Source: Streptomyces europaeiscabiei (GTDB taxonomy: Bacteria > Actinomycetota > Actinomycetes > Streptomycetales > Streptomycetaceae). From it: a DNA stretch of 64,000 nucleotides. The translations under genes were made by a program, and so were the position numbers. Below the pieces are notes generated by a model that was not told the origin of the DNA, ran no database searches, and saw only the letters and a program-made list of their open reading frames with translations. The stretch is taken from positions 3,104,001 to 3,168,000 of the forward strand of contig NZ_CP107841.1 in the NCBI RefSeq assembly GCF_036346855.1. Direction: 5' to 3'. This document shows, piece after piece, positions 36,378 through 55,834 of the stretch (its first letter is position 1; the number at the start of each line of letters is the position of its first letter).

Positions 36378-36391
36378 TAGAACGCGTTCCA
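36378..36391. promoter_or_regulatory. KstR-type operator upstream of MaoC operon
   Basis: TAGAACGCGTTCCA matches the KstR consensus T-N2-AAC-N2-GTT-N2-A at every fixed position. Same pattern occurs at 50387 and 55821. Confidence 0.75.
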
Positions 36392-36439
36392 GTCCGGCGA
36401 CCCTCTGTATAGCCGAGCCACGTGCACTTGTGAAGACTC

Positions 36440-36454
36440 CTGACAGTGCGTCAG
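36440..36454. promoter_or_regulatory. CTGAC-N5-GTCAG palindrome upstream of MaoC operon
   Basis: CTGACAGTGCGTCAG; shared plan with 45364-45378 and 55727-55741. Likely site of a second regulator. Confidence 0.6.
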
Positions 36455-36530
36455 ATGCGCGTGGCGGACAGAAGTGGGACTGGGAAACGGGACGGGCAGC
36501 ACGTTGTCCGGCTGCGGGCACGTGGGGGCT

Positions 36531-36632
36531 TGTCGCGCGGTTCCCCGCACCCCTGAGAAGCAGGGGCCGCGCCCCGCGCTTCTCAGCCCGCAGGGGCCGT
36601 GTCTTTCAGGGGCGCGGGGAACTGCGCGAGCA
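36531..36632. repeat. dispersed intergenic palindromic repeat, copy 1
   Basis: Outer arms CGCGGTTCCCCGCACCCCTG and CAGGGGCGCGGGGAACTGCG enclose a second inverted repeat (TGAGAAG / CTTCTCA). Two further copies lie at 39297 and 46813. Not coding. Confidence 0.85.
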
Positions 36633-36693
36633 ACCACACCACCCACACCCGACCGAATCGCCGCCTTCGCCCTACTCTTGGGCCGTGAGCGAG

Positions 36694-37326
36694 ATGCCCC
36701 GGGATCACCGGACCGCCAAGTCCATCAGGGTGCTGCTCGCCGAGGATCAGCGGATGACGCGGGGCGCGTTGGCGTTGCTGCTGGGTATGGAGGCGGACAT
36801 CCGGGTCGTGGCACAGGTCGGGGCGGGGGACGCGATCGTGGACGCGGCGCTGACCCATCGGCCGGATGTCGCGCTGCTGGACATCGAGCTGCCCGGGATG
36901 AGCGGTCTGGACGCCGCCGCCGAGCTGCGGGACCAGGCGCCCGACTGCCGGGTGTTGATCCTCACCACTTCCGGCCGGCCCGGGTACCTCCGCCGGGTCA
37001 TGGACGCCGGCGCCGCCGGGTTCCTGGTCAAGGACGGGCCCGTGGAGGAGCTGGCCCAGGCGATCCGCCGGGTGCTGACCGGTGAGACCGTCGTCGATCC
37101 GGCCCTCGCCGCGGCCGGGCTGAGCGCCGGGCCGAACCCACTCACCGCCCACGAACGCGACACCCTCAACGCCTCCGCCGACGGCGCCACCGTCGCCGAT
37201 GTCGCCGCCCGGCTGCATCTCTCCGAGTCCACCGTCCGCAACCACCTCGCCTCCGCCATCGGCAAGACCGGCACTCGCAACCGCATGGAGGCGATGCGGG
37301 AGGCCCGGCGACAGGGGTGGCTGTAG
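36694..37326 (+). CDS. NarL/FixJ-type response regulator
   Basis: 210 residues from the ATG; a GTG three codons earlier is possible. Receiver domain with AEDQ (acidic pocket), phospho-acceptor D63 in ALLDIELPG, Thr in LTTSGRPGY and Lys in FLVKDGPVEE. C-terminal LuxR-type helix-turn-helix NASADGATVADVAARLHLSE, then STVRNHLASAIGKTG. No sensor kinase is adjacent, so its partner lies elsewhere; it resembles DesR-type regulators. The 5' flank carries the dispersed repeat. Confidence 0.9.
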   Translation: MPRDHRTAKSIRVLLAEDQRMTRGALALLLGMEADIRVVAQVGAGDAIVDAALTHRPDVALLDIELPGMSGLDAAAELRDQAPDCRVLILTTSGRPGYLRRVMDAGAAGFLVKDGPVEELAQAIRRVLTGETVVDPALAAAGLSAGPNPLTAHERDTLNASADGATVADVAARLHLSESTVRNHLASAIGKTGTRNRMEAMREARRQGWL

Positions 37327-37473
37327 TCCCGCGCCGCCCGGCAGGGCCGCCGGCCGCGGGGCGACCCCTCGTCCCGAGCCTGCTTCCGATCCCCCATGAG
37401 CACCTCCTAGATGGTTCTGACAGTCCACGAGGGCCCGGATCCGTTGCCTCGCCCACAAAAAACCCTCCGAACC

Positions 37474-37486
37474 TGACGACACGTCA
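37474..37486. promoter_or_regulatory. weak copy of the TGACG-N3-CGTCA palindrome
   Basis: TGACGACACGTCA, 114 bp before the MFS start; outermost base pair of the longer motif not conserved. Confidence 0.4.
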
Positions 37487-37599
37487 CTTCCTCATGGGCG
37501 AGTCAAGTTTTCCTTAGTCACTCAAAACAACGGAATAGTTGCCCAGGCGTACAAGGTTCAGACAGCACGTACCCTCACCCGGCCAGGAGGCCCCGCTCA

Positions 37600-39186
37600 A
37601 TGACGCAGCCGCACACACCACCGACGGCCGATCGGCCCGCCCAGGGAGCCACAGGGGCCACACCCGCCTCCGGAGCGATGGTCCCGGTGCTGGCCTTCGC
37701 GGGAATCGTCGTCGCGGTGATGCAGACCCTGCTGGTCCCGGTGATCAAGGACCTCCCGCAGCTGCTGGACACCTCTCCCAGCAACGCGACCTGGGTACTG
37801 ACCTCCACCCTGCTGTCCGGCGCCGTGGCCACCCCGATCATGGGCCGTCTCGGCGACCTCTACGGCAAGCGCCGCATGCTGCTCGCCAGCCTGTCCGTGA
37901 TGGTGGTCGGCGCGCTGATCAGCGCTTTCACCAGCGCGCTCCTCCCGATGATCGTCGGCCGTACCCTCCAGGGCTTCGCCATGGGCGCGATCCCGCTGGG
38001 CATCGGCCTGATGCGCGACGAACTGCCCCGCGAACGCCTCGGCTCCGCCATGGCCCTGATGAGCTCGTCCATAGGCGTCGGCGGTGGACTCGCGCTGCCG
38101 CTCGCCGCCGCGGTCGCGCAGAACACCGACTGGCACGCCCTCTTCTTCGGTGCCGCCGGCCTCGGCGTCCTCGCCATCGTGCTGACCCTCGTCGCCGTAC
38201 CGGAGACGAAGATGCGCGCGCAGGGCACCTTCGACCATCTCGGCGCGCTCGGCCTCTCCGCCGGCCTCATCCTCTTCCTCCTGCCGATCACCAAGGGCAG
38301 CGACTGGGGCTGGACCTCCGCGACCACGCTCGGCCTGTTCGCCGCGTCCGCCCTGGTCCTGCTCCTCTGGGGTGTCCTGGAGCTGCGTATCCCCGCCCCG
38401 CTGGTGGACCTGCGCACCACCGCCCGCCGCGAGGTCCTCCTCACCAACCTCGCCTCGATCATGGTCGGCGTCTCCTTCTACGTCGTCTCCCTCGTCCTGC
38501 CGCAACTCCTCCAGCTGCCGTCCTCCACCGGCTACGGCCTCGGCCAGTCGATGATCGTCGCGGGTCTGTGCGTGGCGCCGCTCGGCCTGACGATGATGTT
38601 CACCGCGCCGGTCTACGCCCGGATCTCCGCCAAGTACGGCCCCAGGAGCACCCTCATCCTGGGCCTGCTCATCATCGCGGTCGGCTACGGCGCCGGGCTC
38701 GGCCTGATGAGCGCCGCCTGGCAGACCGTGGTCGTGTCGGTGGTCCTGGGCGCGGGTATCGGTCTCGCCTACTCCTCGCTACCGGCGCTGATCATCGGCG
38801 CCGTCGACCCGTCGGAGACGGGCGCGGCGACCGGGCTCAACACGCTCATGCGTTCGGTCGGTACGTCCGTGTCGAGCGCCGTCATCGGCATGGTGCTGGC
38901 CAACACCGCGAACCATGTCGGCGGCGTCGCGATCCCGACCATGCACGGCTTCCGCGTCTCCTTCCTCATCGCCACGGCCGCGGTCGGCGTGGGCATCCTC
39001 GTGGCCGTCTTCCTCCCGAGCCGCCGCCCCGCGCAGGGGCTGACGCTCCGTGCGAGCAGCGAGGGCGGGACCGGGGGGATCGAGGGGACCAGGGGGATCG
39101 AGGAGATTGACAAGGCCGGTGAGACGGACGGCGTCGACGCGACCGACGCGACCTCCAGGGAGGACAGGGCAGCGGTCGCCCGCTAG
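37600..39186 (+). CDS. MFS transporter, DHA2 (14-TMS) type
   Basis: 528 residues, ATG 7-8 nt after AGGAGGCC. Fourteen hydrophobic segments; motif A in MGRLGDLYGKRRMLL; motif C-like region GVGGGLALPLAAAV. Family exports drugs or secondary metabolites by proton antiport. A soluble, acidic C-terminal tail of about 45 residues contains GGIEGTRGIEEI-like short repeats. The gene stands alone; a response regulator ends 270 bp upstream. Confidence 0.92.
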   Translation: MTQPHTPPTADRPAQGATGATPASGAMVPVLAFAGIVVAVMQTLLVPVIKDLPQLLDTSPSNATWVLTSTLLSGAVATPIMGRLGDLYGKRRMLLASLSVMVVGALISAFTSALLPMIVGRTLQGFAMGAIPLGIGLMRDELPRERLGSAMALMSSSIGVGGGLALPLAAAVAQNTDWHALFFGAAGLGVLAIVLTLVAVPETKMRAQGTFDHLGALGLSAGLILFLLPITKGSDWGWTSATTLGLFAASALVLLLWGVLELRIPAPLVDLRTTARREVLLTNLASIMVGVSFYVVSLVLPQLLQLPSSTGYGLGQSMIVAGLCVAPLGLTMMFTAPVYARISAKYGPRSTLILGLLIIAVGYGAGLGLMSAAWQTVVVSVVLGAGIGLAYSSLPALIIGAVDPSETGAATGLNTLMRSVGTSVSSAVIGMVLANTANHVGGVAIPTMHGFRVSFLIATAAVGVGILVAVFLPSRRPAQGLTLRASSEGGTGGIEGTRGIEEIDKAGETDGVDATDATSREDRAAVAR

Positions 39187-39220
39187 GCCGAGCGCACGGC
39201 GTGACACCCGCCCGCCCGCG

Positions 39221-39247
39221 CGCTCGCTCGCTCGCTCGCTCGCTCGC
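39221..39247. repeat. CGCT microsatellite
   Basis: Six exact CGCT units plus CGC, 34 nt after the MFS stop codon, preceded by CCCG-type repeats. Confidence 0.9.
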
Positions 39248-39296
39248 CGAGAGTGGCACGTGCCCTCGCCCCTCATCCGCGGGTCCGGTGAGGGCT

Positions 39297-39424
39297 GGTC
39301 GCGCAGTTCCCCGCGCCCCTGAAAAGCAGGGGCTGCGCCCCGTGCTTTCCGGCGCGCGGGGCCGTGCCTTTCAGGCCCGCAGGGGCCAGGTCTTTTAGGG
39401 GCGCGGGGAACTGCGCGGCCAGCC
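39297..39424. repeat. dispersed intergenic palindromic repeat, copy 2
   Basis: Outer arms GCGCAGTTCCCCGCGCCCCT and AGGGGCGCGGGGAACTGCGC around nested GGGGCTGCGCCCC-like stems. The flank CCGACCGAATC is shared with copy 1. Confidence 0.85.
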
Positions 39425-39529
39425 CCCGCCGGACCCGCACCCGCCATCCGACCGAATCCCCCGAACCCTCCCGCCGATCACCGCATGGCAGCATGGGGAT
39501 CCAGCGCGTACGACGACACGGAGGACCCC

Positions 39530-40213
39530 ATGTCCGCGGCCCCCAACCCGAACCCGGCCACGCCCGCTCCCGCGCCCAAGCCGGAGATTCTCGGCTCCTT
39601 CGAGTCGGCCAAGGGTTTCATGCCGGTGGGTGAGGGGCTGGCGCTGTACGCGGCGGCGGTGGAGGCGGGGCGGCTGGGGCTGCCGTTGCTGGAGGTGGGG
39701 ACGTACTGCGGTCGGTCGACGATCCTGCTGGCCGACGCCGCCCGTGAGGCGGGGGTCACGGCGATCACGGTCGACCACCACCGGGGCAGCGAGGAGCAGC
39801 AGCCGGGCTGGAAGTACCACGACGAGTCCACCGTCGACCCCGAGGTGGGCCGTATGGACACGCTCCCCACCTTCCGCCGTACCCTCCACCGGGCGGGTCT
39901 GGAGGACCACGTCGTCGCGGTCGTCGGCCGTTCCCCGCAGGTCGCCGCCTTCTGGGGCACCCCCCTCGGCCTCGTCTTCGTCGACGGCGGCCACACCGAC
40001 GAGCACGCCGGCGCCGACTACGAGGGCTGGGCCCCGCATGTCGCCCCGGACGGTCTCCTCGTCATCCACGACGTCTTCCCGGACCCCGAGGACGAGTTCA
40101 CCGGGCAGGCCCCGTACCGGGTCTACCTCCGCGCCCTGGCCTCCGGCGCCTTCACGGAGGTCTCGGCGACGGACTCCCTGCGGGTGCTGCGGCGCACCGG
40201 GACGGGAATCTGA
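39530..40213 (+). CDS. class I SAM-dependent methyltransferase
   Basis: 227 residues from MSAAPNPNPATPAPAPKPEI, GGAGG 5 nt upstream. SAM motif I is LLEVGTYCGRSTILLADAA; acidic motif ITVDHHRGSEEQQ; later LGLVFVDGGHTDEHAGADYE, a catechol O-methyltransferase-like metal region; then LLVIHDVFPDPEDEF. The substrate is unknown. Its last 60 bp are part of a 139-bp tandem duplication. Confidence 0.88.
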   Translation: MSAAPNPNPATPAPAPKPEILGSFESAKGFMPVGEGLALYAAAVEAGRLGLPLLEVGTYCGRSTILLADAAREAGVTAITVDHHRGSEEQQPGWKYHDESTVDPEVGRMDTLPTFRRTLHRAGLEDHVVAVVGRSPQVAAFWGTPLGLVFVDGGHTDEHAGADYEGWAPHVAPDGLLVIHDVFPDPEDEFTGQAPYRVYLRALASGAFTEVSATDSLRVLRRTGTGI

Positions 40214-40428
40214 CCCACACCTCCCCGATACCTGAGCGGCCCCGTAATACCTACGCCACCTCTATGCCGTGGTCCTGGACCAGTTCCTCTTCACGGAGGT
40301 CTCGGCGACGGACTCCCTGCGGGTGCTGCGGCGCACCGGGACGGGGATCTGACCCACACCTCCCCGATACCTGAGCGGCCCCGTAATACCTACGCCACCT
40401 CTATGCCGTGGTCCTGGACCAGTTCCTC
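40151..40428. repeat. 139-bp tandem duplication at convergent gene ends
   Basis: 40151-40289 and 40290-40428 are identical except for one base (GGGAATC against GGGGATC). Each unit contains the 3' end of the methyltransferase gene and, on the other strand, the 3' end of the Mrr/TerD gene including its stop codon. Confidence 0.95.
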
Positions 40429-42525
40429 CAGGCCGCCCCGGTACCCCTTGCCACCGACGACGAAGTCCCAGTCGCCGTTGGCGCGGCGGCGGAAGGAGCC
40501 GAGGGTGAGGGCCGTTTCGTCGGCGCGGCCGTCGGACACCTCCAGGCGGCCCTGTTCGGCTCGGGAGGGGTCCAGGAGGCGGATGCCGGCGTCGGTGAAG
40601 CCGGAGAGGTCGGCGTCGGGGTTCACGGCCGGGTCGATCGCCGCCACGAGGACGAGGCGGTCGGCCTCCGCCGGCAGTGTGTCGAAGGAGACCTGGATCG
40701 CGGCCTTGTCGGGTGCGGTCGGCGGGACGGCACGGACCGTGCCGTCGGGGGTGCGGAGGTTGTTGTAGAACACGAAGTGGTCGTCGCTGAGGACCCGGTT
40801 GCCGTGGCAGACGAGCGCGCAGACGTCCAGGGCGACACCGCCGGTCCAGTACATGCCGAGCACGCTGTGGTCGTCCGTGGCCGGAGCCGGGTCCGCCCCG
40901 TTCGAGGTGTCCGCCGCGGTCCGCTGGGCGGGCAGCACCACGGTGGGGTCGGTCGAGGACACGGGAGCGGCAGCGGGGCGCTCGCCCGTCCCCAGGCGGC
41001 CCCGTAGCCCGTGCCGGTGGAGCAGGTCGACGAGTTCGCGGCCCGAGACCAGCTCCAGCGGCTTGCCGTTGGCGAAGGTGTGCGAGCCCGGTCCGAACTT
41101 GGACGTCGTCACCAGGACACCCTTGTTGGCGCCGGCGTCCTGGACCGTGCCGTAGAGGTCGCGGACGGCGGTCGGCGGGACGGTGTTGCGGTAGCGCTTG
41201 ACCTGCACGACGATCTTGCCGCCCCGGATCGGGGCCGGGTCCAGGGCGTCGACGTCCACCCCGCCGTCGCCCGAGCGCTGGGTGGTGACGGCCTGCATAC
41301 CCATGGCCCGGAAGAGTTCCGCGACGAGTGACTCGAAGGCGAGGGGGTCCATCTCCAGCAGGTCGGGCTCGTCCTCGCCGCCATGGGTGACGACGCCGTT
41401 GCCCACGTCGTCGGGCCTGCGCCCGGGGCGGACGGGGGTGCGCTGGTCCGGCCGGGCGGAGAGCTGGCCCCGGAGTCCGTCCGTCAGGCAGTCCACGGCG
41501 CTCACCTGCTCCAGGTGCAGGCCGGCGAAGACCGACCGGGGCACCATGACGGTCGCCAGGAAGATCTGGGCGCGGCGGCCGGTCGCCGGATCGTGGTCGT
41601 CCACGAACCCGTTCAGGACCACCGACTCCAGCGCGCCGAACTCGTCGGCGGCGAAGAGGTCGTGGAGCACCAGGAGGGCGCACTGCGCGAGGACGTCCCG
41701 GTACAGGGCCCGCCGCTGGGTGACCGGGCGCGGGCGCTCCTTGTCCTGGTCGACACTCGGCATGTAGACGACGGTCTTCGCCTCGGGGACGACGTCGTAC
41801 CTGGGCAGCTCCCAGTCCAGGACCAGTTGCCGGGCCGCCGAGTCGTAGGCGGCGGAAACGCCCCGGGGGAAGCCCTCGGGCCAGGCGGGCGAGGCGTAGA
41901 GGGCGGCGGAGAAGTAGTCGACGGCGGCCTCCGGGTCGCCGTCGCGCAGTGCCGTCGCCATCTGCGCGAGCCCGGCGTTGTGCCGCCGGATCTCCGCCCG
42001 CTGCCCTTGCGCCCACTGCTCGTACTGCCGTTGGTACTGGGCCAGTTGGCGCTGGCGCTGGGTCTCGGCTGCCTGTGCCGCGTGCCAGTCGTGCTCGAAT
42101 CGGGCGCGCGCCTCGGCCTGCGCCTGCGCACGGCGCTGTGCGGTCCAACCACCCTGCGCCTGATAGTGGTTGGGGTCCGGCATGGGCACCGGCTGGGCGA
42201 GCGGCCCCGGCGAGAACGGCTCCAGCCGCTCGGTGCGGGTGAGGGAGGCGGACCGGAACGCCGGGGCCCGGCAGCCGGCCACCAACAGCCCCTCCAGCGC
42301 CTGGACCTGCGCGTCCAGCTCCTCCGTACGCCGCCGCGCCTCGGCCTCGCGCTGCTGGCGGTACGCCGCCTGCTGCTCCCGCTGGCTGCGCGCCACCTCC
42401 CGTTGGTACGCGCGCTGCTGTCGCTCGTACTCGCGCTGCTGCCGGGCCTGTTCCTCCGACTGACGCTGCTGCTGGCGTTGTGCCTCGGCCCAGATCCCGG
42501 CCAACCCGTTGGAGCGACGACTCAT
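40390..42525 (-). CDS. Mrr-type restriction endonuclease fused to TerD domain
   Basis: 711 residues from MSRRSNGLAGIWAEAQRQQQ. Residues 15-90 are a Gln/Arg/Glu-rich coiled coil, with a second at about 140-200. A middle region of about 200 residues is unassigned. At about 400-520 is a PD-(D/E)XK nuclease of the Mrr_cat type: FESLVAELFRAMGMQAVTTQ, the catalytic Asp in SGDGGVDVDALDP, QVKRY as the (E/Q)xK motif, then TTSKFGPGSHTFANGKP. The C-terminal 180 residues are a TerD domain (GMYWTGGVALDVCALVCHGN, then DHFVFYNNLRTPDGTVRAV), ending in its calcium-binding type loops. TerD proteins act in tellurite/stress and membrane-linked defence systems; the fusion would tie DNA cleavage to that sensing module. 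It stands alone, convergent with the methyltransferase. Confidence 0.88.
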   Translation of the reverse strand: MSRRSNGLAGIWAEAQRQQQRQSEEQARQQREYERQQRAYQREVARSQREQQAAYRQQREAEARRRTEELDAQVQALEGLLVAGCRAPAFRSASLTRTERLEPFSPGPLAQPVPMPDPNHYQAQGGWTAQRRAQAQAEARARFEHDWHAAQAAETQRQRQLAQYQRQYEQWAQGQRAEIRRHNAGLAQMATALRDGDPEAAVDYFSAALYASPAWPEGFPRGVSAAYDSAARQLVLDWELPRYDVVPEAKTVVYMPSVDQDKERPRPVTQRRALYRDVLAQCALLVLHDLFAADEFGALESVVLNGFVDDHDPATGRRAQIFLATVMVPRSVFAGLHLEQVSAVDCLTDGLRGQLSARPDQRTPVRPGRRPDDVGNGVVTHGGEDEPDLLEMDPLAFESLVAELFRAMGMQAVTTQRSGDGGVDVDALDPAPIRGGKIVVQVKRYRNTVPPTAVRDLYGTVQDAGANKGVLVTTSKFGPGSHTFANGKPLELVSGRELVDLLHRHGLRGRLGTGERPAAAPVSSTDPTVVLPAQRTAADTSNGADPAPATDDHSVLGMYWTGGVALDVCALVCHGNRVLSDDHFVFYNNLRTPDGTVRAVPPTAPDKAAIQVSFDTLPAEADRLVLVAAIDPAVNPDADLSGFTDAGIRLLDPSRAEQGRLEVSDGRADETALTLGSFRRRANGDWDFVVGGKGYRGGLEELVQDHGIEVA

Positions 42526-43022
42526 ACGCTGCAAGCCCTCCCACCGGAGCTCCACCGCCCTCGCGACGAAGCCCCGCCCCCACAACCAGACGTAACCGGA
42601 CGACTTTATCCCGCGACGGCGCCTACGCCTACCGCTGGTCAGCGCCCTGCCCACCGAGGGCCGCGTTCCGGCGGACGGCGCGCGGCCGCCGGGTCGCCCG
42701 GCCGCACGGCCCGGTCCGGACGAGCAGGTGGACGAGCAGGTGGACGACGGCCGCCACGACGACGATCACGGCGGCGGCCGGGCGGTGGCTCGCTGGGAGA
42801 GCGGGCGCGGATGCATCGCGTACGCGGGCCGCTGCGACGACGGGCCTTCAGGGGGCTCCCCGGAGCAGGAGGCGGCCGGCCACGGGCTGACGAGCGGTAC
42901 CCGGGACGGGGCGCGGGTCGGGAACGCGGGCGGGACGGCCGCACGCCCCGGAGCATGGCATCGGCCGCCACGCGAGGCGGGGGCGGCCGGTCCGCCGGGG
43001 CCCGACCCGTAAGGTGGCAGGC
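42526..43022. other. divergent promoter region, no gene supported
   Basis: About 500 bp between the Mrr/TerD gene and the amidase. The minus strand near 42640-42780 encodes a hydrophobic stretch (VIVVVAAVVHLLVHLLVRTG) partly from a GACGAGCAGGTG repeat, but no ATG or ribosome binding site goes with it. Promoters for both genes must be here; none is clear by eye. Confidence 0.4.
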
Positions 43023-44018
43023 GTGTCGTACGTAGGCCCGGACTTCGATCCGCCCCAGCCCCGCCGTTCCGCACTTCGCCGTCCGCTGACCGTGGCGGTG
43101 GCCGCGGTCGTGGTGGGGGCGGTGGCCGGGTGGGGTGTCTGGCAGGCCGTCGGGGACTCCGGGGGCGGGGACGACGGATCGGGCAGCGTGGCGGGCCCGC
43201 AGACCCGGTCGGCGGGCACTCCGCCGACGTCCCCCGACCCGTCCGGCGGGCCGACCGCCTCCGACGACGGGAAGGACGGCAAAGACGGGAAGGACGGCGA
43301 GAAGGCGAGCCCCTCCGGTTCCTCCTCCGCGCCCGCCGCCACCGGCCCCCTCAAGGGCAAGGTCGTCGTCATCGACCCGGGTCACAACCCCGGCAACTTC
43401 CAGCACACGACCGAGATCAACCGCAAGGTGAACATCGGGACGAACGCCAAGGAGTGCGACACGACGGGGACGACCACCAACGACGGCTACCTGGAAGCCG
43501 AGTTCACGCTGGACGTCTCCCGGCGGCTGCGGACACTCCTCGAACAGGAGGGCGCCACGGTGAAGTTCACCCAGGACGACGACCGGCCCTGGGGCCCGTG
43601 CATCGACGAGCGGGCACGGATCGGCAACGAGGCGAAGGCGGACGCGGTGGTGTCGATCCACGCGGACGGCTCCGGCGCCGGCAACCGCGGCTTCCATGTG
43701 ATCCTGCCTGGTTCGGTGAACGAGGGCGCAGCCGACACCCGGCCCATCGTCGCCCCCTCACGCGACCTCGGCGAGCGCATCACCGGCTTCTTCGTCCGCG
43801 CCACCGGCAGTGCCCCCTCCAACTACGTCGGCGACGGCACCGGCATCGTCACCCGCACCGACCTCGGCGGCCTCAACCTCTCCACCGTCCCCAAGGTGTT
43901 CATCGAGTGCGGCAACATGCGTGACAGCAAGGACGCGGCCCAGCTCACCAGCGGAGCCTGGCGCCAGAAAGCGGCCCGGGGAATCTCGGACGGCATCACG
44001 AGCTTCCTCGAAAATTGA
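43023..44018 (+). CDS. N-acetylmuramoyl-L-alanine amidase (Amidase_3)
   Basis: 331 residues; GTG at 43023 with AAGG upstream, start MSYVGPDFDPPQPRRS. One membrane anchor (about 24-45), then a Ser/Gly/Asp-rich linker with GKDGKDG repeats, then the catalytic domain from about 112: zinc ligands in VVVIDPGHNPG, Glu in GYLEAEFTLDV, His in DAVVSIHADGSG, and the catalytic Glu in PKVFIECGNMRD. Cleaves the amide bond between MurNAc and the stem peptide outside the membrane. Confidence 0.93.
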   Translation: MSYVGPDFDPPQPRRSALRRPLTVAVAAVVVGAVAGWGVWQAVGDSGGGDDGSGSVAGPQTRSAGTPPTSPDPSGGPTASDDGKDGKDGKDGEKASPSGSSSAPAATGPLKGKVVVIDPGHNPGNFQHTTEINRKVNIGTNAKECDTTGTTTNDGYLEAEFTLDVSRRLRTLLEQEGATVKFTQDDDRPWGPCIDERARIGNEAKADAVVSIHADGSGAGNRGFHVILPGSVNEGAADTRPIVAPSRDLGERITGFFVRATGSAPSNYVGDGTGIVTRTDLGGLNLSTVPKVFIECGNMRDSKDAAQLTSGAWRQKAARGISDGITSFLEN

Positions 44019-44081
44019 ACAACTCCCCCCTTCGGGGAACTCGGGCCGCTATCCCGAAGTACCACGGAATGAAGTGCGGGC

Positions 44082-46956: not shown

Positions 46957-48036
46957 TCAGCAGCACTCCGAGTCGTCGAAGTCGTCCAGGCCACGCGGCA
47001 ACCGCTCACCGCCGAACACCGCGCACGTCGCCTCGTCGCCGCCCAGCGCGGCCACGGCCAGCAACAGGGACCCCGCGGTCCAGGAGGTCAGTTCCTCGGG
47101 CCAGACGGCGTGGTCCTCGAAGACGTAACCCGTCCAGTACAGGCCCGAGTCGGCGTCGCGGAGGTGCTGGATGGACTGGAGGATGTCCAGGGCACGGTCG
47201 GACTCGCCCATCGCCCAGAGGGCCAGGGCGAGTTCGGCCGACTCACCGCCGGTCACCCACGGGTTGGGGACCACGCAGCGGACGCCGAAGCCGGGCACGA
47301 CGAAACGGTCCCAGCCCTCCTCGACACGGGACTTGGCCTCGATGCCGGTGAGCGCGCCGCCGAGCACGGGGTAGTACCAGTCCATCGAGTAGCGGTTCTT
47401 GTCGAGGAACCGCTCGGGGTGCCGGCGTATCGCGTGCCGGAGCGCGCCGACCGCCAGTTCCCAGTCGGGCTGCGGTTCTTCGCGCTGTTCGGCGATGGCG
47501 AGCGCACAGCGCAGCGCGTGGTGGATCGACGAACTGCCCGTCAGTAGCGCGTCGTTCACCGGCGTGCCGTCGTCCTCGCGCTTCCAGCCGATCTGGCCGC
47601 CGGGCTGCTGGAGCCGCAGGACGCATTCGATCGCCGCGTAGACGGCCGGCCACATGCGGTCGAGGAAGGTGTCGTCGCCGGTGGCCAGGTAGTGGTGCCA
47701 GACGCCGACGGCTATGTACGCGACGAAGTTGGTCTCCCGGCCGCGGTCGGTGACGTCGTCGGCGTCCCCGTCGGCGTACGCGGCGTACCAGGAGCCGTCG
47801 CCGTTCTGGTGCCGGCGCAGCCATTCGTAGGCGCGCTCGGCGGCCTCGTGCTCGCCGGCCGCGTCCAGGGCCATGGCCGCCTCGGTGTGGTCCCACGGGT
47901 CGAGGTGGTGCCCGCGGAACCAGGGGATGGCACCGTCCGCGCGCTGCACCGCGAGGATGCCGCGCACCGTGGCGGCGGCCTCCTCTGCGGTGAGGACCCC
48001 GGGCAGGACCAGGTGTTCTGTCCGGGGAGTCGTCAC
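46957..48036 (-). CDS. prenyltransferase-like alpha/alpha-toroid protein
   Basis: 359 residues; GTG start overlapping the methyltransferase stop (GTGA). The helical repeat pattern with QRADGAIPWFRGHHLDPWDH, then EWLRRHQNGDGSWYAAYADG and LQQPGGQIGWKREDDGTPVN, fits the (alpha/alpha)6 barrels of prenyltransferase/squalene-cyclase or glycoside hydrolase type. No DxDD cyclase motif is seen. C-terminus DDFDDSECC ends in two cysteines. Acts after or with the glycosyltransferase and methyltransferase in the same operon. Confidence 0.78.
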   Translation of the reverse strand: MTTPRTEHLVLPGVLTAEEAAATVRGILAVQRADGAIPWFRGHHLDPWDHTEAAMALDAAGEHEAAERAYEWLRRHQNGDGSWYAAYADGDADDVTDRGRETNFVAYIAVGVWHHYLATGDDTFLDRMWPAVYAAIECVLRLQQPGGQIGWKREDDGTPVNDALLTGSSSIHHALRCALAIAEQREEPQPDWELAVGALRHAIRRHPERFLDKNRYSMDWYYPVLGGALTGIEAKSRVEEGWDRFVVPGFGVRCVVPNPWVTGGESAELALALWAMGESDRALDILQSIQHLRDADSGLYWTGYVFEDHAVWPEELTSWTAGSLLLAVAALGGDEATCAVFGGERLPRGLDDFDDSECC

Positions 48037-50332: not shown

Positions 50333-50386
50333 TCCTGGCCCCCTTCTCACTGCGATTTCCCGTGAGATTACGACGAGACGGTAATC

Positions 50387-50400
50387 TAGAACAAGTTTCA
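50387..50400. promoter_or_regulatory. KstR-type operator between GT operon and kstR-like gene
   Basis: TAGAACAAGTTTCA fits T-N2-AAC-N2-GTT-N2-A at all fixed positions, 150 bp upstream of the KstR-like gene and 55 bp upstream of the glycosyltransferase. Confidence 0.75.
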
Positions 50401-50549
50401 GAGTTGATCGTTCAAGAGGCTCTGAATCTACCGGCTGGTAGAACCGCTGTGAGAGGTGGATCGGGTGATTCACGCCACGGCCCGCGCCCTGGCATGCTAT
50501 TTGATCTCATACCCTCACCGACCGTCACGACCGTCACGGAACGAGACCC

Positions 50550-51188
50550 ATGCCTGCGGAAGTCAAGGTGGAAGCCGGCGCCGGGCGACCGGACTCACCG
50601 CCCCTCACGGAGCGGCAGGAGGCCCGTCGGCGCCGCATCCTGCATGCGAGCGCCCAGCTTGCCAGCCGGGGCGGTTTCGACGCCGTACAGATGCGTGAGG
50701 TCGCCGAGTCCTCGCAGGTCGCCCTGGGGACGCTCTACCGCTACTTCCCCTCCAAGATCCATCTGCTGGTCGCCACCATGCAGGACCAGCTGGAACACAT
50801 GCACGGCACGCTCCGCAAGAAGCCCCCGAGCGGCACGACGGCGGCCGAGCGCGTCGCCGAGACCCTGATGCGCGCCTTCCGCGCCCTGCAGCGCGAGCCC
50901 CACCTCGCCGACGCCATGGTCCGCGCCCTCACCTTCGCCGACCGCAGCGTCAGCCCCGAGGTCGACCAGGTCTCGCACCAGACCACCGCGATCATCCTCG
51001 ACGCCATGGGCCTGGAGAACCCGAGTGCGGAGCAACTGTCGGCGGTCCGCGTCATCGAACACACCTGGCACTCGGCCCTCATCACCTGGCTCTCCGGCCG
51101 CGCCTCGATCGCCCAGGTGAAGATCGACATCGAGACGGTGTGCCGCCTGATCGACCTGACGGCGCCGGACCGGCGGCCGCAGACGTAG
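50550..51188 (+). CDS. kstR: KstR-like TetR-family regulator
   Basis: 212 residues from MPAEVKVEAGAGRPDSP. The helix-turn-helix region GGFDAVQMREVAESSQVALG then TLYRYFPSKIHLLVA is very close to mycobacterial KstR, the repressor of cholesterol-catabolism genes (GGYEAVQMRAVADRADVAVG in that protein, from memory). The C-terminal domain keeps the ADAMVRALTFADRSVSPEVD block. Sites fitting the KstR consensus occur three times in this window, one of them at its own upstream region. In mycobacteria the ligand is a steroid CoA-thioester intermediate; the ligand here is not known. Confidence 0.88.
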   Translation: MPAEVKVEAGAGRPDSPPLTERQEARRRRILHASAQLASRGGFDAVQMREVAESSQVALGTLYRYFPSKIHLLVATMQDQLEHMHGTLRKKPPSGTTAAERVAETLMRAFRALQREPHLADAMVRALTFADRSVSPEVDQVSHQTTAIILDAMGLENPSAEQLSAVRVIEHTWHSALITWLSGRASIAQVKIDIETVCRLIDLTAPDRRPQT

Positions 51189-51276
51189 GACGCGGGCACG
51201 ACAATGACCCGCGGGCACGGAAACACGACAATGACCCGCGGACACTGAAAACAGGACCCGCGGGCACGGAAAAGAC

Positions 51277-51390
51277 CTACGAGACGGGTTCCCTGCGCCG
51301 GTACAGCTTGTCGGCCCAGGTGCCGAGGGTCACCGTCAGGTCCTGTCCTGCAACCTTCCGGCCTCTCAGCCCGACCGTCGACGTCGGCAT
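51277..51390 (-). CDS. possible small ORF or gene-end fragment, 37 residues
   Basis: MPTSTVGLRGRKVAGQDL, then TLGTWADKLYRRREPVS and TAG. Codon pattern looks coding, also upstream of the Met, but there is no ribosome binding site, so it may be the tail of a lost gene. Downstream on the plus strand, 51190-51270 has repeats of GACCCGCGGGCAC. Confidence 0.3.
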   Translation of the reverse strand: MPTSTVGLRGRKVAGQDLTVTLGTWADKLYRRREPVS

Positions 51391-51541
51391 CGGCGGATCT
51401 GCTACCTCGCGCCACTGTCGGCTACTCCGGTCGGCTCCCTCACTCGCCTCGTAGGCTGATTTCTACGATAGAACACCCATGCGGGAGCACAACCCCCTTA
51501 AGGGTATTTTTTTCGAGCAATTCGGACGGCGGTAGATCGCC

Positions 51542-51676
51542 CTAACCCACGGCTTCCAGACCGCTCCAGCTCCGCCCGACCGCCTTCTCCCCCGCCCACT
51601 GGTCGAGCAGCCTGCGGGTCTCGCCCTCCGGGGCCGCCACGAAGACACGCTGGGCGCCCGCGTGGGTGGTCCGGGG
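51542..51676 (-). pseudogene. C-terminal gene fragment after TPR gene
   Basis: In frame after the TPR stop, reads THAGAQRVFVAAPEGETRRL, then LDQWAGEKAVGRSWSGLEAV and a stop. No usable start at the right place. Probably the end of a gene that once followed the TPR gene. Confidence 0.4.
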
Positions 51677-51930
51677 CTACTTGTGGAGGGTGCCCTCGCT
51701 GCAGCAGGCGCAGTGTGTCGTCAGGCTGCCGGCGGGCTCCGCGCCGAAGTCGTGATCGGCGAAGAGGGTGGTGAGGGCCTCCAGGTCGGCGGGGTCGCCG
51801 GCCGCGACCGTCACCTGGAAGGTGGGCAGGTCGGACGGCTCGAAGAGGAGCAGTTCGTCGAAGACGGGGAAGGTCGTGCCGTCGACGACGCGTTCGCCGT
51901 TGGGCTGGCCGTTCATGGAGGACGATCTCG
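51677..51930 (-). pseudogene. TPR-type protein, 3' part beyond IS insertion
   Basis: Encodes the C-terminal portion GERVVDGTTFPVFDELLLFE, ending HCACCSEGTLHK, of a protein whose N-terminal portion lies at 53394-53870. The bases just after the insertion read E-I-V-L-H, continuing the interrupted RRYR; an extra A at the following GAAC (CAT GAAC GGC) shifts the frame again. The Cys-x-Cys-Cys end suggests metal binding in the intact protein. Confidence 0.75.
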
Positions 51931-53393
51931 CCTTGACATGCTCCTCGCCCTGAAGGGCGAGGATTCTGGCCTTCCTTGACTGGTTGCCGTGCCGCTACGC
52001 GGCACGGTTTCCGGTGCGGAATCCGTGGCTTCCTGTTTCTTCGCGCTGTGCCGGGATCGCTCCCGGTCCTACCGGCGCTCCGCAGGCCGATACCGCCAGT
52101 CCGGCGGCCGTCTTCACGTTGATCGCGGCGTTGTGGTCCCGGTCGTGGACGGTGCCGCAGGCGGCACAGGTCCATTCCCGGACGTTCAGCGGTTTGGGCC
52201 CGTCCACGGCGCCGCAGGCCGAGCAGGTCTGGGAGGTCGGAGTGAACCGGCCGATCTTCACCAGGGTGCGGCCGTACCGTCTCGCTTTGTACTCCAGCAT
52301 GTGCACGAACGACGACCAACCCGCGTCATGGACGGACTTGGCCAGGCGGGTGCGTGCCAGTCCAGCCACCGACAGGTCCTCCACAGCGATCTCTTGGTTC
52401 TCGGAGATCAGCTTCGTGGAGAGCTGGTGGTGGAACTCTCGGCGGGCGTCGGCGACCTTGGCGTGAGCGCGGGCGACCTTCAGGCGGGCTCTGGCCCGGT
52501 TCTTCGATCCCTTCTGCTTGCGGGACAGCTCCCTTTGGGCCTTCTTCAGCTTCTTCTCCGCGCGCCGCAGAAAGCGCGGAGAGTCGATCTTCGTGCCGTC
52601 GGACAGGACAGCGAAATGCGTGAGGCCGAGATCGATGCCGATGGTGCGGTCGGTTTCGGGCATCCGTGCCGCGTCGGCGTCCGGGTCGGTATCGATGACG
52701 AAGGAGGCGAAAAACCTGCCGGCCGCGTCCTTGACGACGGTGACCGAGGAGGGCGTGGCGGGCAGCGCGCGGGACCACTTCACCTTCACCGCGCCGATCT
52801 TCGGCAGGTTCAGGCGTCCCTTGCCGGTGATGGACCAGCGGGCGTTGGCGGTGAACCGGATCGACTGCCGGGCGTCCTTGCGGGACTTGAACCGGGGCGG
52901 GCCCAGTTTCGGTCCCTTCCGGGCACCCTTGAGGGAGGCGAAGAAGTTCCTGTAGGCGGTCTCGGCATCCCGCAGGGACTGCTGGAGGACGACTGCGGAG
53001 ACCCGGCCCAGCCAGGCGCGCTGCGGCGTCCGTTTCGCCTCCGTGATCAGGCGTGTGGACAGCTGACCGGCCGTCGGGAACGGCTGCCCGGCATCACGGG
53101 CCTCCTCACGGGCACGCACGGCGTCGTTGAACACGACGCGGGCGCACCCGAACGCCCTGGCCAGCGCGGCCTGCTGAGCGGCGTCGGGGTACAACCTGAA
53201 GGCGTACCGGAGCTGCATGACGATCACACTAGGCACGTCGAACCCACGCCGCTATCGGGAACATGCGAACGATCCGTCACCGTCCCGAAGCAGGGTCCGG
53301 CTCCGCCGGAACGACACCGCGACGCTCCGCGTCGCGACCACGCGATTCGCTTCACCTCCGGCCTGAAGGCCGGAGCACTACGAATGATGTCCG
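51931..53393 (-). mobile_element. IS200/IS605-type (tnpB-only) insertion element
   Basis: About 1.46 kb containing tnpB and no tnpA. Both ends have the subterminal hairpins of the group: left (minus-strand 5') CTCCGGCCTTCAGGCCGGAG at 53357-53376; right CCTCGCCCTTCAGGGCGAGG at about 51942-51961, followed by AGCATGTCAA, a typical right-end sequence. No terminal inverted repeats or target duplication, as expected for this single-strand transposition mechanism. It splits a TPR gene after the codons for RRY. Limits are good to a few bases. Confidence 0.85.
51995..53218 (-). CDS. tnpB: TnpB RNA-guided nuclease of IS605-group element
   Basis: 407 residues from MQLRYAFRLYPDAAQQAALA; two upstream codons could also start. 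RuvC acids are in place: Asp in TIGIDLGLTHFAVLSDG, Glu in AVEDLSVAGLART, Asp in DRDHNAAINVKTA. The zinc finger has two CxxC pairs (TCSACGAV and CAACGTVH). With all catalytic residues present it should be active as an omegaRNA-guided DNA nuclease that helps the element persist. The guide RNA would come from the 3' end of the gene and the right end (about 51931-52150). No TnpA, so it depends on a transposase elsewhere. Confidence 0.9.
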   Translation of the reverse strand: MQLRYAFRLYPDAAQQAALARAFGCARVVFNDAVRAREEARDAGQPFPTAGQLSTRLITEAKRTPQRAWLGRVSAVVLQQSLRDAETAYRNFFASLKGARKGPKLGPPRFKSRKDARQSIRFTANARWSITGKGRLNLPKIGAVKVKWSRALPATPSSVTVVKDAAGRFFASFVIDTDPDADAARMPETDRTIGIDLGLTHFAVLSDGTKIDSPRFLRRAEKKLKKAQRELSRKQKGSKNRARARLKVARAHAKVADARREFHHQLSTKLISENQEIAVEDLSVAGLARTRLAKSVHDAGWSSFVHMLEYKARRYGRTLVKIGRFTPTSQTCSACGAVDGPKPLNVREWTCAACGTVHDRDHNAAINVKTAAGLAVSACGAPVGPGAIPAQREETGSHGFRTGNRAA

Positions 53394-53870
53394 GTAGCGG
53401 CGGCCGCCGGTCACGGGGACGTTCACCACCCGGCCGCGCGTCGGGCACAGCCGGTCGATCCACACCACCTCGCGTCGGCCGTCGGTGTCCAGGCGCACGC
53501 AGGCCTGGCCGAAGCGGCCGTCGATCTCCCCCTCGCCGTCGGGCAGCTCGATACCGAAGCCGGTCCAGGCGTCGCGGGCGGTGGCCCAGTCGCGGCGGAT
53601 CGTGGCGGCGATGCCGAGGTTCCAGTACGCGGGGTCGCCCTCGCCACGCGGTGCGCGGGCGGCGGCCTGGATCCCGAGTTCGTACGCCTTGTCCCAGTTG
53701 CGCAGGAACTTGTGGCCGAGCGCGGCGTCGTACCACCACTCCGCGCTCGGCTTCTCGTCCGGGAAATGAGCGAGCACCTGCTCGTAGAGGTCGGCGGCGC
53801 GCTGCCACTCCTCGGCGTCCCAGGCCGCGTACGCCTGGTTGATCAGCTCCTTGGCCTCGGACTTGCGCAC
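53394..53870 (-). pseudogene. TPR-type protein, 5' part, interrupted by IS
   Basis: Starts MRKSEAKELINQAYAAWDAE; TPR-like helices to about residue 105 (WQRAADLYEQVLAHFPDEKP, WDKAYELGIQAAARAPRGEG, YWNLGIAATIRRDWATARDA), then CPTRGRVVNVPVTGGRRYR. The frame continues 14 codons into the IS before a stop at 53352, so a truncated protein of 172 residues could be made. The rest of the gene is at 51677-51930. Confidence 0.8.
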
Positions 53871-53934
53871 GCTTCCCCGCCCCGACTTCCCGATCGTTCC
53901 TGTGCCGACCTCAGAGCGTAGGCCACCACACCCC

Positions 53935-54168
53935 CTAGTCCTCCGGCGGGAACACCGGATCCCCGCTGCCCAGCAGGGTGATCGCGATCGCCTCCACCGG
54001 GCAGCCCTCGGCCGCCTTCAGGATGCGTTCGCCCGCGTCGGTGTCGGGGGTGGCGGGGTGGGACTGCATGGCCGAGTCGAGGCGGAAGGCTTCCGGGGCG
54101 AGGTGGGTGCACTGGGCCGAGCCGATGCAGAGGGAACGGTCGACCTCCACGTGCCAGCGGTCGCCCAT
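53935..54168 (-). CDS. 3Fe-4S/4Fe-4S ferredoxin
   Basis: 77 residues from MGDRWHVEVDRSLCIGSAQC, GGAGG 7 nt upstream overlapping the ALDH end. Cys pattern CIGSAQC ... EGCPVEAI with a non-Cys residue at the second ligand position, as in single-cluster [3Fe-4S] ferredoxins that serve cytochrome P450s. Only 2 nt separate it from the ALDH stop. No P450 is in the window. Confidence 0.9.
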   Translation of the reverse strand: MGDRWHVEVDRSLCIGSAQCTHLAPEAFRLDSAMQSHPATPDTDAGERILKAAEGCPVEAIAITLLGSGDPVFPPED

Positions 54169-54170
54169 GC

Positions 54171-55682
54171 CTACGCCTCCCCGGCCGCGGATCCGTCCGT
54201 CGTCCCCGTCCCACCGGCGGCGGCGGGCGGCTCGTATCCGGCCGGGAGATGGATCATCTTGTGCTCCAGGTACTCGCCGTAGCCCTCGGGGCCGAACTCC
54301 CGGCCCAGGCCGGAGTTCTTGTAACCGCCGAAGGGGCCGAGCATGTCGAGGCTGAAGGTGTTGACGGAGTAGGTGCCGGTGCGGACCTGGCGGGCGATGT
54401 CGACGCCGTGTTCGTCGTCGGCGGTCCAGACGCTGCCGCTGAGGCCGTAGTCGGAGTCGTTGGCGATGCGTACGGCCTCGGCCTCGTCGCCGTACGGGAG
54501 GAGGCAGATCACCGGGCCGAAGATCTCCTCTCGGGCGATGCGCATGGAGTTGTCGACGTCGCCGAACAGGGTCGGTTCCACGTACCAGCCGCGTTCCAGG
54601 CCCGCCGGGCGGCCGCCGCCGGTGAGGATCTTGGCGCCCTCCTCCTGGCCGATGCGGATGTAGTCGAGGCTGCGGCGTTGCTGGCGGGCGGCGACGAGGG
54701 GGCCTAGTTCGGTGGCCGGGTCGAGGGGGTCGCCGATCTTGAGCGCGGAGGCGTAGGCCGCGAAGGCCTCGGCGAACTCGTCGTAGCGGCTGCGCGGGAC
54801 GAGGATGCGGGTCTGGGCGACACAGGCCTGCCCGTTGATCATCCAGGCGAAGGGGGCGATGCCGTTGACGGCCGTCTGCGCGTCCGCGTCCGGCAGGATC
54901 ACGGCCGCCGACTTGCCGCCCAGCTCCAGGGTGACGCGGGTGAGGTTGCGGGCGGCGACCTCCATGACGCGTTTGCCGGCGGCGACCGAGCCGGTGAAGG
55001 AGACCTTGTCGACGCCCGGGTGCCCGACCAGGTACTCGCTGACCTCGCGGTCGGCGGGGAGGATGGACAGGACCCCTTCGGGCAGGCCCGCCTCGGCGGC
55101 GATCTCCGCCAGCAGGTAGGCGTCCAGCGGGGTTTCGGGCGACACCTTCAGGATGGCCGGGCAGCCCGTGAGGAGGGCGGGGGCGAGCTTCGCGGCGGCG
55201 GTGAACTGCGGGACGTTCCAGGGGACGACCGCCGCGACCACCCCGACCGGCTCCCGCCGCACGAGGATCCTGCCGAGTACGCCGTCCCGCCGCTCCTCGT
55301 ACGTGAACGCGCGCGCCGTCGTGATCGCCGCGTCCCACACCAGCATCGACGCGAGCGCCTGCACCATCACGCTGGAGGTGAACGGGGTGCCGTTCTCGGA
55401 GCTGATGATCCGGGCGAACTCCTCGTGGCGTACGGCGAAGGCGTCCTTGATCCGGGCGACGACCTCGATCCGTTCGTCGAGGGTCATGCGTGGCCAGGGG
55501 CCGTGGTCGAAGGCGTGGCGCGCGGCTGCCACGGCCCGGTCGACGTCCGCGCGCGAGGCGTGCGGGACGCGGCCGATGACCTCCTCCGTGTGCGGTGAGA
55601 CCACCTCGATGACGTCCGTGCCCAGGGGGTCGGTCAACTCCCCGCCGATGAACAGCTGTCCGTGTTCCACGAGTTCGGTCAT
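54171..55682 (-). CDS. aldehyde dehydrogenase
   Basis: 503 residues from MTELVEHGQLFIGGELTDPL. NAD-binding region VVPWNVPQF, catalytic Glu (E253) in LELGGKSA, catalytic Cys (C287) in NGQACVAQTR, EIFGPV block later. Converts aldehydes to carboxylates. C-terminal 20 residues are Gly/Ala-rich. Operon with a ferredoxin; divergent from a metallo-beta-lactamase-fold gene across a 213-bp region that holds both recurring operators, implying membership of the KstR-linked regulon. Confidence 0.93.
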   Translation of the reverse strand: MTELVEHGQLFIGGELTDPLGTDVIEVVSPHTEEVIGRVPHASRADVDRAVAAARHAFDHGPWPRMTLDERIEVVARIKDAFAVRHEEFARIISSENGTPFTSSVMVQALASMLVWDAAITTARAFTYEERRDGVLGRILVRREPVGVVAAVVPWNVPQFTAAAKLAPALLTGCPAILKVSPETPLDAYLLAEIAAEAGLPEGVLSILPADREVSEYLVGHPGVDKVSFTGSVAAGKRVMEVAARNLTRVTLELGGKSAAVILPDADAQTAVNGIAPFAWMINGQACVAQTRILVPRSRYDEFAEAFAAYASALKIGDPLDPATELGPLVAARQQRRSLDYIRIGQEEGAKILTGGGRPAGLERGWYVEPTLFGDVDNSMRIAREEIFGPVICLLPYGDEAEAVRIANDSDYGLSGSVWTADDEHGVDIARQVRTGTYSVNTFSLDMLGPFGGYKNSGLGREFGPEGYGEYLEHKMIHLPAGYEPPAAAGGTGTTDGSAAGEA

Positions 55683-55725
55683 GGCCGACTGCCTCCCGGA
55701 GCCAGTTCTCTTCGCCGGCAAGTTC

Positions 55726-55742
55726 TCTGACGATGCATCAGA
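55726..55742. promoter_or_regulatory. CTGACG-N3-CATCAG palindrome before ALDH operon
   Basis: TCTGACGATGCATCAGA, 44 bp upstream of the ALDH start; counterpart of 36440 and 45364. A further dyad GGGAACTG-N4-CAGTTCCC follows at 55754-55773. Confidence 0.6.
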
Positions 55743-55820
55743 TTTATTGGGACAGGGAACTGATACCAGTTCCCGTGAGAGGAGTCCACGGAGCGCACAC
55801 CGGATCATCCGGACTCCCGG

Positions 55821-55834
55821 TGGAACTCGTTCTA
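55821..55834. promoter_or_regulatory. KstR-type operator between ALDH and MBL genes
   Basis: TGGAACTCGTTCTA matches T-N2-AAC-N2-GTT-N2-A at every fixed position; lies 62 bp before the MBL-fold start and 139 bp before the ALDH start. Confidence 0.75.

Follow-up and report, generated by a model that had tools for sequence, protein, structure and literature searches.

A putative KstR-type regulon for steroid-like side-chain oxidation dispersed over the genome of Streptomyces europaeiscabiei

Candidate operators and their regulator

A 64-kb stretch of the Streptomyces europaeiscabiei genome, called the window below, carries a gene for a TetR-type repressor resembling KstR (Rv3574) of mycobacteria and rhodococci. 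Divergent from it lies an operon headed by a glycosyltransferase (GT) gene; an operon for a MaoC hydratase, an alcohol dehydrogenase (ADH), and an SDR lies on one side, and divergent aldehyde dehydrogenase (ALDH)-ferredoxin and MBL-fold hydrolase genes lie on the other (Table 1). Each of these three groups has a palindromic site of the KstR type at its promoter region. The sites are in all likelihood operators, and the regulon to which they point is the subject of this study.

Table 1. Operators, genes, and a predicted promoter of the window, with two genes outside it (prefix C1)
Feature	Position	Strand	Context or evidence
Operator TAGAACGCGTTCCA	36378..36391	no strand	strict match; upstream of MaoC/ADH/SDR operon, ~168 bp before MaoC start
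Operator TAGAACAAGTTTCA	50387..50400	no strand	strict match; between kstR and GT operon, ~55 bp before GT start, ~150 bp before regulator
Operator TGGAACTCGTTCTA	55821..55834	no strand	strict match; between divergent ALDH-ferredoxin and MBL-fold genes
KstR-like TetR repressor, 212 aa from ATG	50550..51188	+	Pfam TetR_N and TetR_C_20; solved relatives; NCBIfam
GT4-type glycosyltransferase, 519 aa	48773..50332	-	Pfam on longer open reading frame; adjoins kstR in all 80 named loci
Class I SAM methyltransferase, 248 aa	48033..48779	-	domain match; in 78/80 named loci
359-aa protein	46957..48036	-	weak match to oligosaccharide amylase model; in 78/80 named loci
Alpha acyl-CoA dehydrogenase gene	C1:713396-714571		tight site 44 bp before start
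Beta acyl-CoA dehydrogenase gene	C1:5307240-5308436		tight site 42 bp before start
MaoC / MFE-2 hydratase-type enoyl-CoA hydratase, 286 aa	35350..36210	-	Pfam on longer open reading frame; best solved relative MFE-2 protein 1s9c, 183 bits
Zinc ADH, 358 aa	34093..35169	-	TIGR03989 302 bits, under 440 cut-off
SDR, (3R)-hydroxyacyl-CoA dehydrogenase type, 323 aa	33086..34057	-	closest solved structure 7lg9 (304 bits); NCBIfam PRK07792 492 bits, over 414 cut-off
ALDH, 503 aa	54171..55682	-	Pfam Aldedh on longer open reading frame
Single-cluster ferredoxin (Fer4_13/Fer4_15), 77 aa	53935..54168	-	domain match
MBL-fold hydrolase, Strvi_7410 family	55896..56924	+	NCBIfam NF053820 670 bits, over 525 cut-off
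Predicted sigma70-type promoter of MaoC operon	36406..36434	-	TTCACA (36429-36434), 17 bp, TATACA (36406-36411); judged by eye

The strict pattern T-N2-AAC-N2-GTT-N2-A has exactly three matches in the window, at 36378, 50387, and 55821, as an earlier reading of the sequence alone had reported. All three are intergenic by gene prediction, and dinucleotide shuffles of the window contained 0.08 matches on average, three being reached in none of 100. Over the whole genome (10.95 Mb) the same pattern yields 39 sites, compared with 19 for the reversed pattern used as a control, and 20 of the 36 sites outside the window fall within predicted genes, the other 16 being intergenic; the bare consensus therefore predicts poorly, at about two-fold over the control, and may be about half noise. 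The sequence-only reading had pointed to site frequency against chance as a check: the two-fold excess is there, but by itself it is unconvincing, and the convincing test of such sites is conservation upstream of orthologs, not a bare genome count.

The tight palindromic sub-form, T[AG]GAAC-N2-GTTC[CT]A, occurs four times in this genome (once for the reversed control) and 50 times over the 15 genomes scanned (15 for the control). Two of the four sites lie in the window and two at promoters of acyl-CoA dehydrogenase genes outside it; the window site at 50387 (TAGAACAAGTTTCA) is a variant kept throughout the genus, not the tight sub-form. A one-mismatch scan of the genome was uninformative, with 235 sites versus 201 for the control. 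The annotated neighbors of the 14 other intergenic consensus sites (the L033 genes not among them) include no steroid-type gene, and a site at 8199111 beside an AidB-type dehydrogenase gene was dropped, as it lies downstream of that gene. One consensus site of another letter type, TGCAACTAGTTGCA (L041:4001), stands 57 bp before a minus-strand gene (L041:1929-3944) joining an old-yellow-enzyme domain to a pyridine-nucleotide reductase domain, a make-up known from dienoyl-CoA reductases.

The earlier identification of a KstR-like regulator at 50550 is borne out by its TetR_N and TetR_C_20 domains and by solved relatives labeled KstR. The five best solved relatives have E values of 1.4e-38 or better, three of the five bear the KstR label, and the next relative follows at 3e-8. 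Among named relatives, the nearest regulator is that of S. europaeiscabiei, with 99% identity. On the printed alignment 75 of 182 residues (41%) are identical to KstR, including 30 of 46 in the helix-turn-helix stretch. Translation might also begin at a GTG at 50568. The operator TNNAACNNGTTNNA is present in the regulator's own promoter, as in KstR itself; a divergent fadE34 neighbor of the mycobacterial type is not found at the window kstR, the GT operon standing there instead. In the 2007 KstR paper SCO2319 of S. coelicolor was named as a possible KstR ortholog (32% identity, no synteny); a motif, target, or function for SCO2319 was not found in the passages of that paper at hand, and no other paper naming it was found in the open-access literature. 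Judging from the genus-wide conservation described below, the window regulator is presumably orthologous to SCO2319.

Conservation of the sites and the glycosyltransferase operon

Conservation was examined in named Streptomyces loci (the best 80 of 529 relatives of the regulator), in a genus sample of 40 genomes plus our own (41 in total), where gene presence was called with E cut-offs, and in a separate class sample with 19 Streptomyces genomes; footprints in the genus sample were taken from the best 30 loci for each of five genes (150 loci, 582 kb). KstR was found in 39 of the 41 genus genomes and in 17 of the 19 Streptomyces genomes of the class sample. The site between kstR and the GT gene is present in all 80 named loci, as TAGAACAAGTT[TACG]CA, in 38 of the 39 KstR-bearing genus genomes (29/30 and 9/9, the exception being one mismatch off), and in all 15 further Streptomyces loci of the class sample. 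Strict sites likewise precede the MaoC orthologs in 29 of the best 30 loci and the alpha and beta dehydrogenase genes in 28 and 23 of the best 30, respectively. The spacer letters are mostly kept promoter by promoter, and the 582 kb of footprinted loci contain no other strict match.

Two alternatives can be judged from these footprints. The two-fold genomic excess and the 20 intragenic sites would fit chance matches of a loose palindrome, but the sites recur at the same promoters throughout the genus, the footprinted loci contain no further strict match, and no shuffle has three sites, which leaves this explanation next to no credit. In our view chance is already refuted for the kstR/GT and MaoC sites, and only the ALDH/MBL site could, taken alone, be called weak. 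Use of the sites by a TetR regulator other than that of the window is also quite improbable: our regulator does fall under the KstR equivalog cut-off, and its binding is predicted from sequence, yet it is the sole match to the KstR family in the genome at E 1e-10, it has the site in its own promoter in 38 of 39 genomes, and its helix-turn-helix is largely conserved.

The GT gene adjoins kstR not only in the named loci but also in all nine genus loci and all 15 class-sample loci examined, the nine including four of the six genomes that lack the dehydrogenase genes (see below). Its start lies 54-56 bp from the operator in 78 of the 80 named loci, while the distance to kstR varies, which upholds the earlier suggestion that the GT operon belongs to the regulon. 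Relatives of the 359-residue protein of this operon are labeled prenyltransferase/squalene oxidase repeat; its structure model is mostly helical and, at a mean pLDDT of 48, too poor for use. Among the 13 best-scoring kstR loci outside the genus (41-47% identity), seven have a GT neighbor (one with a strict and six with a one-mismatch site), five have a fadE34-like neighbor (four strict, one a mismatch off), and one has neither neighbor and no site; both arrangements could be ancestral. It is possible, if rather doubtful, that the primary role of KstR is control of the GT/methyltransferase operon, perhaps for a cell-surface or lipid glycoside, the catabolic promoters being a later and losable addition. 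The kstR/GT operator in 38 of 39 KstR-bearing genomes, compared with an alpha gene in 33 of 41, the constant spacing to the GT start, and the seven extra-genus loci would all agree with such an order of events; however, the catabolic link is also old, since a fadE34-like gene adjoins kstR in five of the same 13 loci.

Acyl-CoA dehydrogenases and the steroid ring question

The two tight sites outside the window precede the genes for the acyl-CoA dehydrogenases alpha and beta, which are apparently monocistronic, unlinked, and 4.6 Mb apart. At both promoters, judged by eye, TTCC-N2 and TANNNT boxes are separated by 17 bp, and the gap is filled by the operator. The best solved match of alpha is 4x28_A with 458 bits (208 of 391 aligned residues identical), followed by Tcur3483 with 429 bits, the next family scoring 157 bits; beta is matched best by 6wy8_A (Tcur3481) with 157 bits and 4x28_D with 136 bits, the next family scoring 82 bits. 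PDB entry 4x28 is presumably FadE26/FadE27. Both sequences are closest to steroid enzymes among the solved structures, which places them with the FadE26-FadE27 type, and as a pair they appear closest to the partners of steroid side-chain dehydrogenases such as ChsE4-ChsE5 (FadE26-FadE27) and Tcur3483/Tcur3481. Among the 41 genomes, alpha is present in 33 (in two of them, G007 and G031, as partial genes), beta in 32, MaoC in 36, and the MBL-fold gene in 30. Alpha and beta occur together in 32 genomes, alpha alone in one, and neither in eight (p = 9e-8, shared ancestry ignored).

Further candidate targets appeared in the 15 genomes scanned with the tight pattern. A strict site stands 11 bp before a fadE34-like dehydrogenase gene in three of them (G003, G014, and G011); FadE34 is a double-domain protein, and the proteins of G003 and G014 share 65% and 59% identity, respectively, with the G011 protein, in which both dehydrogenase halves are visible. 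In one genome, G010, a strict site precedes a lipid-transfer-type thiolase gene by 11 or 23 bp, the start being uncertain. This thiolase gene (L343) adjoins an ortholog (85% identical) of the window MFS transporter gene at 37687-39186; beside the window MFS gene itself no thiolase gene is predicted. Cholesterol oxidase was rejected as a target because in G010 and G011 the strict matches beside GMC/cholesterol-oxidase genes fall within signal-peptide codons; a one-off site ~28 bp before the annotated start of the G011 cholesterol-oxidase gene is a lead only. The tight sites examined in G012, G008, G002, and G009 lie within predicted genes and were not counted; G009 has no KstR match.

These data make it probable that a small KstR-type regulon, dispersed over the genome and serving the beta-oxidation of steroid-like side chains, has its master repressor and three of its five promoters in the window. 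In the absence of inducer, the KstR-like protein (SCO2319 type) would occupy T-N-GAAC-N2-GTTC-N-A operators as a dimer and keep RNA polymerase away. At the dehydrogenase promoters the operator lies between a TTCC-type -35 and a TANNNT -10 box with a 17-bp gap, and at the MaoC promoter it follows just downstream of the -10 box, all boxes being predicted by eye. By analogy with mycobacterial KstR, the repressor would be released by the CoA thioester of an oxidized sterol side chain. ADH, ALDH, and ferredoxin, the latter as an oxygenase partner, would then take an alcohol through the aldehyde to the acid; alpha-beta dehydrogenation would fall to a heterotetramer-type acyl-CoA dehydrogenase encoded by the two unlinked genes, followed by hydration by MaoC and dehydrogenation by the SDR. 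KstR would in addition control its own gene and the divergent GT/methyltransferase operon, and a KstR2-like cluster elsewhere in the genome would serve the steroid C/D rings. What the sequences show directly is the sites and how they are conserved, the kinship of the genes, and their co-occurrence; binding, repression, ligand, and substrate are predictions from these. The earlier reading had assigned hydratase, dehydrogenase, ALDH, ferredoxin, and possible thioesterase steps to the controlled genes; for a thioesterase role of the MBL-fold protein no support was found.

The C/D-ring cluster, at 2.70-2.71 Mb, contains IpdA-, IpdB-, and IpdC-like genes together with KstR2-like, thiolase, SDR, and dehydrogenase genes. 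The IpdA-like protein scores 332 bits against solved IpdA (next family 85), and the KstR2-like protein 190-210 bits against solved KstR2 (next 81); the IpdB-like gene is named by position, and the IpdE2 equivalog cut-off of 450 bits was missed, at 146 bits. The core of mycobacterial KstR2 sites is CAAG-N2-CTTG, and it is not found in the 39.8-kb cluster. The intergenic DNA of this region (L329/L330, C1:2686200-2726000) has short palindromes, CCTAACAAACGTTAGG for one, which may be operators of the KstR2-like protein in Streptomyces. The genus was searched for ring degraders with an IpdC-like protein of the KshA-bearing genome G011, encoded 9 kb from KshA, as a presumed marker; the IpdC-like protein of our genome is 81-82% identical to it and is identified by that comparison. 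Two genomes were expected and 33 of 41 were found, and our reading was therefore changed. Alpha and the IpdC-like gene occur together in 33 genomes and neither in eight (p = 1e-8, with the same neglect of ancestry).

KshA marks the 9,10-seco route. KshA_C proteins of ~300 bits are found in two of the 41 genomes, ours not among them, and seven other genomes, ours included, exceed the Pfam KshA_C cut-off (23.3 bits) with 53-97 bits. The protein of our genome scores 91 bits, and 95 bits against solved KshA; it is a Rieske protein (L286:9120-10193, minus strand) encoded beside a beta-lactamase-fold gene and a two-component system. Across the genomes sampled, genes for side-chain and C/D-ring steps are widespread, and the standard A/B-ring oxygenase, with KshA as the A/B-ring gene searched, is rare.

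Several observations weigh against a steroid side-chain regulon. The regulator scores 200 bits with the NCBIfam KstR model, under the 280-bit equivalog cut-off, and for this reason it is filed as KstR-like, not as a KstR equivalog; KstR is missing from two of the 41 genus genomes and from two of the 19 Streptomyces genomes of the class sample. The strict site is lacking in seven of the best 30 beta loci and two of the best 30 alpha loci, and at ALDH/MBL it is weakly conserved (23 of 72 named intergenic regions and 7 of the best 30 sampled loci), a half-site plus core being found in 56 of the 72. There is no strict KstR-type site in the 39.8-kb C/D-ring cluster, and no steroid-CoA ligase, P450, or thiolase gene lies under the five promoters or among the annotated neighbors of the other intergenic sites. 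The co-occurrence values ignore shared ancestry, and they include the two partial alpha genes. No KshA_C match above 91 bits was found in our genome, which leaves a steroid substrate as a prediction. Six KstR-bearing genomes (G002, G016, G026, G027, G028, and G030) have no dehydrogenase genes, and all six have the kstR/GT site; MaoC is found in three of them (G002, G016, and G026), with a site in G002 and without one in G016. Since KstR is kept in these genomes, steroid breakdown is not its only role. In the passages of a 2012 comparison, KstR and its sites originate at the ancestor of Mycobacterium and Rhodococcus; because of the Streptomyces footprints we suggest that the repressor-operator pair is older.

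The same observations bear on an alternative in which the operators are real and of the KstR type, but serve a regulon for another bulky acyl-CoA, from branched fatty acids or from terpenoid or hopanoid side chains, with re-purposed fadE26/27-like enzymes. This would agree with the rarity of ~300-bit KshA_C proteins (two of 41 genomes, not ours), with the hold of KstR on a GT operon and its retention where dehydrogenases are absent, and with published evidence: in a 2016 survey, steroid pathways were judged to be missing from 55 of 57 Streptomyces genomes, and according to a 2026 paper S. lividans TK24 changed the sterols of a yeast co-culture little, unlike S. platensis, which also counts against the steroid regulon. 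On the other hand, both dehydrogenase subunits are nearest to steroid enzymes (for alpha, 458 and 429 bits versus 157 for the next family), alpha and the IpdC-like gene co-occur completely in the 41 genomes, KstR2-like and IpdA-like genes are present in our genome, and sterol is lost in yeast-Streptomyces co-culture, as reported in the same paper. We regard a substrate of this other kind as unlikely, though deserving of attention. A broader proposal, offered tentatively as one possibility, is that most Streptomyces possess a two-repressor (KstR-like and KstR2-like) steroid program with side-chain and C/D-ring modules and no standard A/B-ring oxygenase; they would then either open rings A and B in an unrecognized way or depend on steroids that other organisms have partly degraded, such as sterols released from fungi under attack, and the same repressor would connect this program to a GT operon that is retained even where the catabolic genes are lost.

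Upstream of the ALDH gene, at 55755-55774, lies a second, different palindrome, GGGAACTGATACCAGTTCCC, possibly an operator of another regulator of ALDH-ferredoxin; the form GAACTG-N4-CAGTTC is found in 39 of the 72 ALDH/MBL intergenic regions of relatives. Between the regulator and ALDH-ferredoxin, the minus-strand gene at 51995-53227 encodes an IS605-type OrfB/TnpB protein with a Cas12f1-like TNB domain. A single protein encoded at 40390-42525 (minus strand) combines an Mrr-type restriction endonuclease domain with a C-terminal TerD domain, and a phage-integrase family protein is encoded at 31721-32881 (minus strand), directly downstream of the MaoC/ADH/SDR operon.

Relation to known systems and significance

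The best SDR relative, structure 7lg9, we take to be mycobacterial ChsB1/Hsd4A. The likeness to the KstR regulon of mycobacteria and rhodococci comprises a TetR repressor, the 14-bp palindrome TAGAAC-N2-GTTCTA, a site in the regulator's own promoter, and targets of the fadE26/fadE27, Hsd4A, and MaoC types, with fadE34- and thiolase-type targets in some relatives. The first identification as KstR is right in kind. Its description of a different, compact gene set holds for the compactness; instead of being truly different, the set looks like part of the mycobacterial KstR side-chain set, scattered over the genome, with fadE26/fadE27-like genes, an Hsd4A-like SDR, and MaoC, joined in some relatives by a fadE34-like gene and a thiolase. 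Unlike the mycobacterial system, with its large cluster, the Streptomyces one has a regulator that is 41% identical to KstR and misses the NCBIfam equivalog cut-off, five supported sites spread across 10.9 Mb, unlinked dehydrogenase subunits, and a divergent GT operon in place of fadE34, and no A/B-ring or mce gene is among its identified targets.

As for the dehydrogenases, the alpha and beta sequences resemble ChsE4-ChsE5 (FadE26-FadE27) and Tcur3483-Tcur3481, co-occur, and are both under KstR-type sites; they differ in being two apparently monocistronic genes 4.6 Mb apart, with a distant beta subunit (136-157 bits). The C/D-ring cluster is like the KstR2/ipdABC (HIP, C/D-ring) regulon in bringing together KstR2-like, IpdA-, IpdB- (by position), IpdC-like, thiolase, and SDR genes, and unlike it in the missing CAAG-N2-CTTG core and the missed IpdE2 cut-off. 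A further close precedent is SCO2319, named in 2007 as a possible KstR ortholog.

Published facts used in this study come from the accessible passages of PMC1995591, PMC3388012, PMC4810484, PMC5380842, PMC6678751, PMC4761994, and PMC13170338. In these passages KstR regulons of 83 and 74 genes are reported, and the 2007 paper counts fadE26, fadE27, fadE34, and ltp thiolases among the members of the KstR regulon; in a review the KstR ligand is a steroid-26-oyl-CoA, and the ChsE4-ChsE5 pair is described as a steroid side-chain dehydrogenase, the FadE26/FadE27 paper being of 2015. A report of 1977, as quoted later, describes a streptomycete grown on HIP that accumulated MOODA. According to the 2026 paper, yeast sterols are metabolized by Streptomyces to differing degrees, nearly completely in S. 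platensis, and choD and cyp125A13 are induced in S. lavendulae; the words 'KstR' and 'regulator' do not occur in its main text. S. platensis NRRL 8035 is reported to be an efficient user of sterols. Searches of the open-access PMC literature yielded no description of a KstR regulon in Streptomyces.

For sterol consumption by Streptomyces, a conserved KstR-type regulon, together with a C/D-ring gene that co-occurs in 33 of the 41 genomes sampled, would offer a candidate regulator, a predicted pathway, and five promoters for use as reporters. It would also raise the question of whether, and by what route, rings A and B are opened. Spread over single-gene promoters, a steroid regulon of this kind could escape surveys based on gene clusters, and here it is associated with a KstR relative in Streptomyces, a group rarely credited with steroid use.

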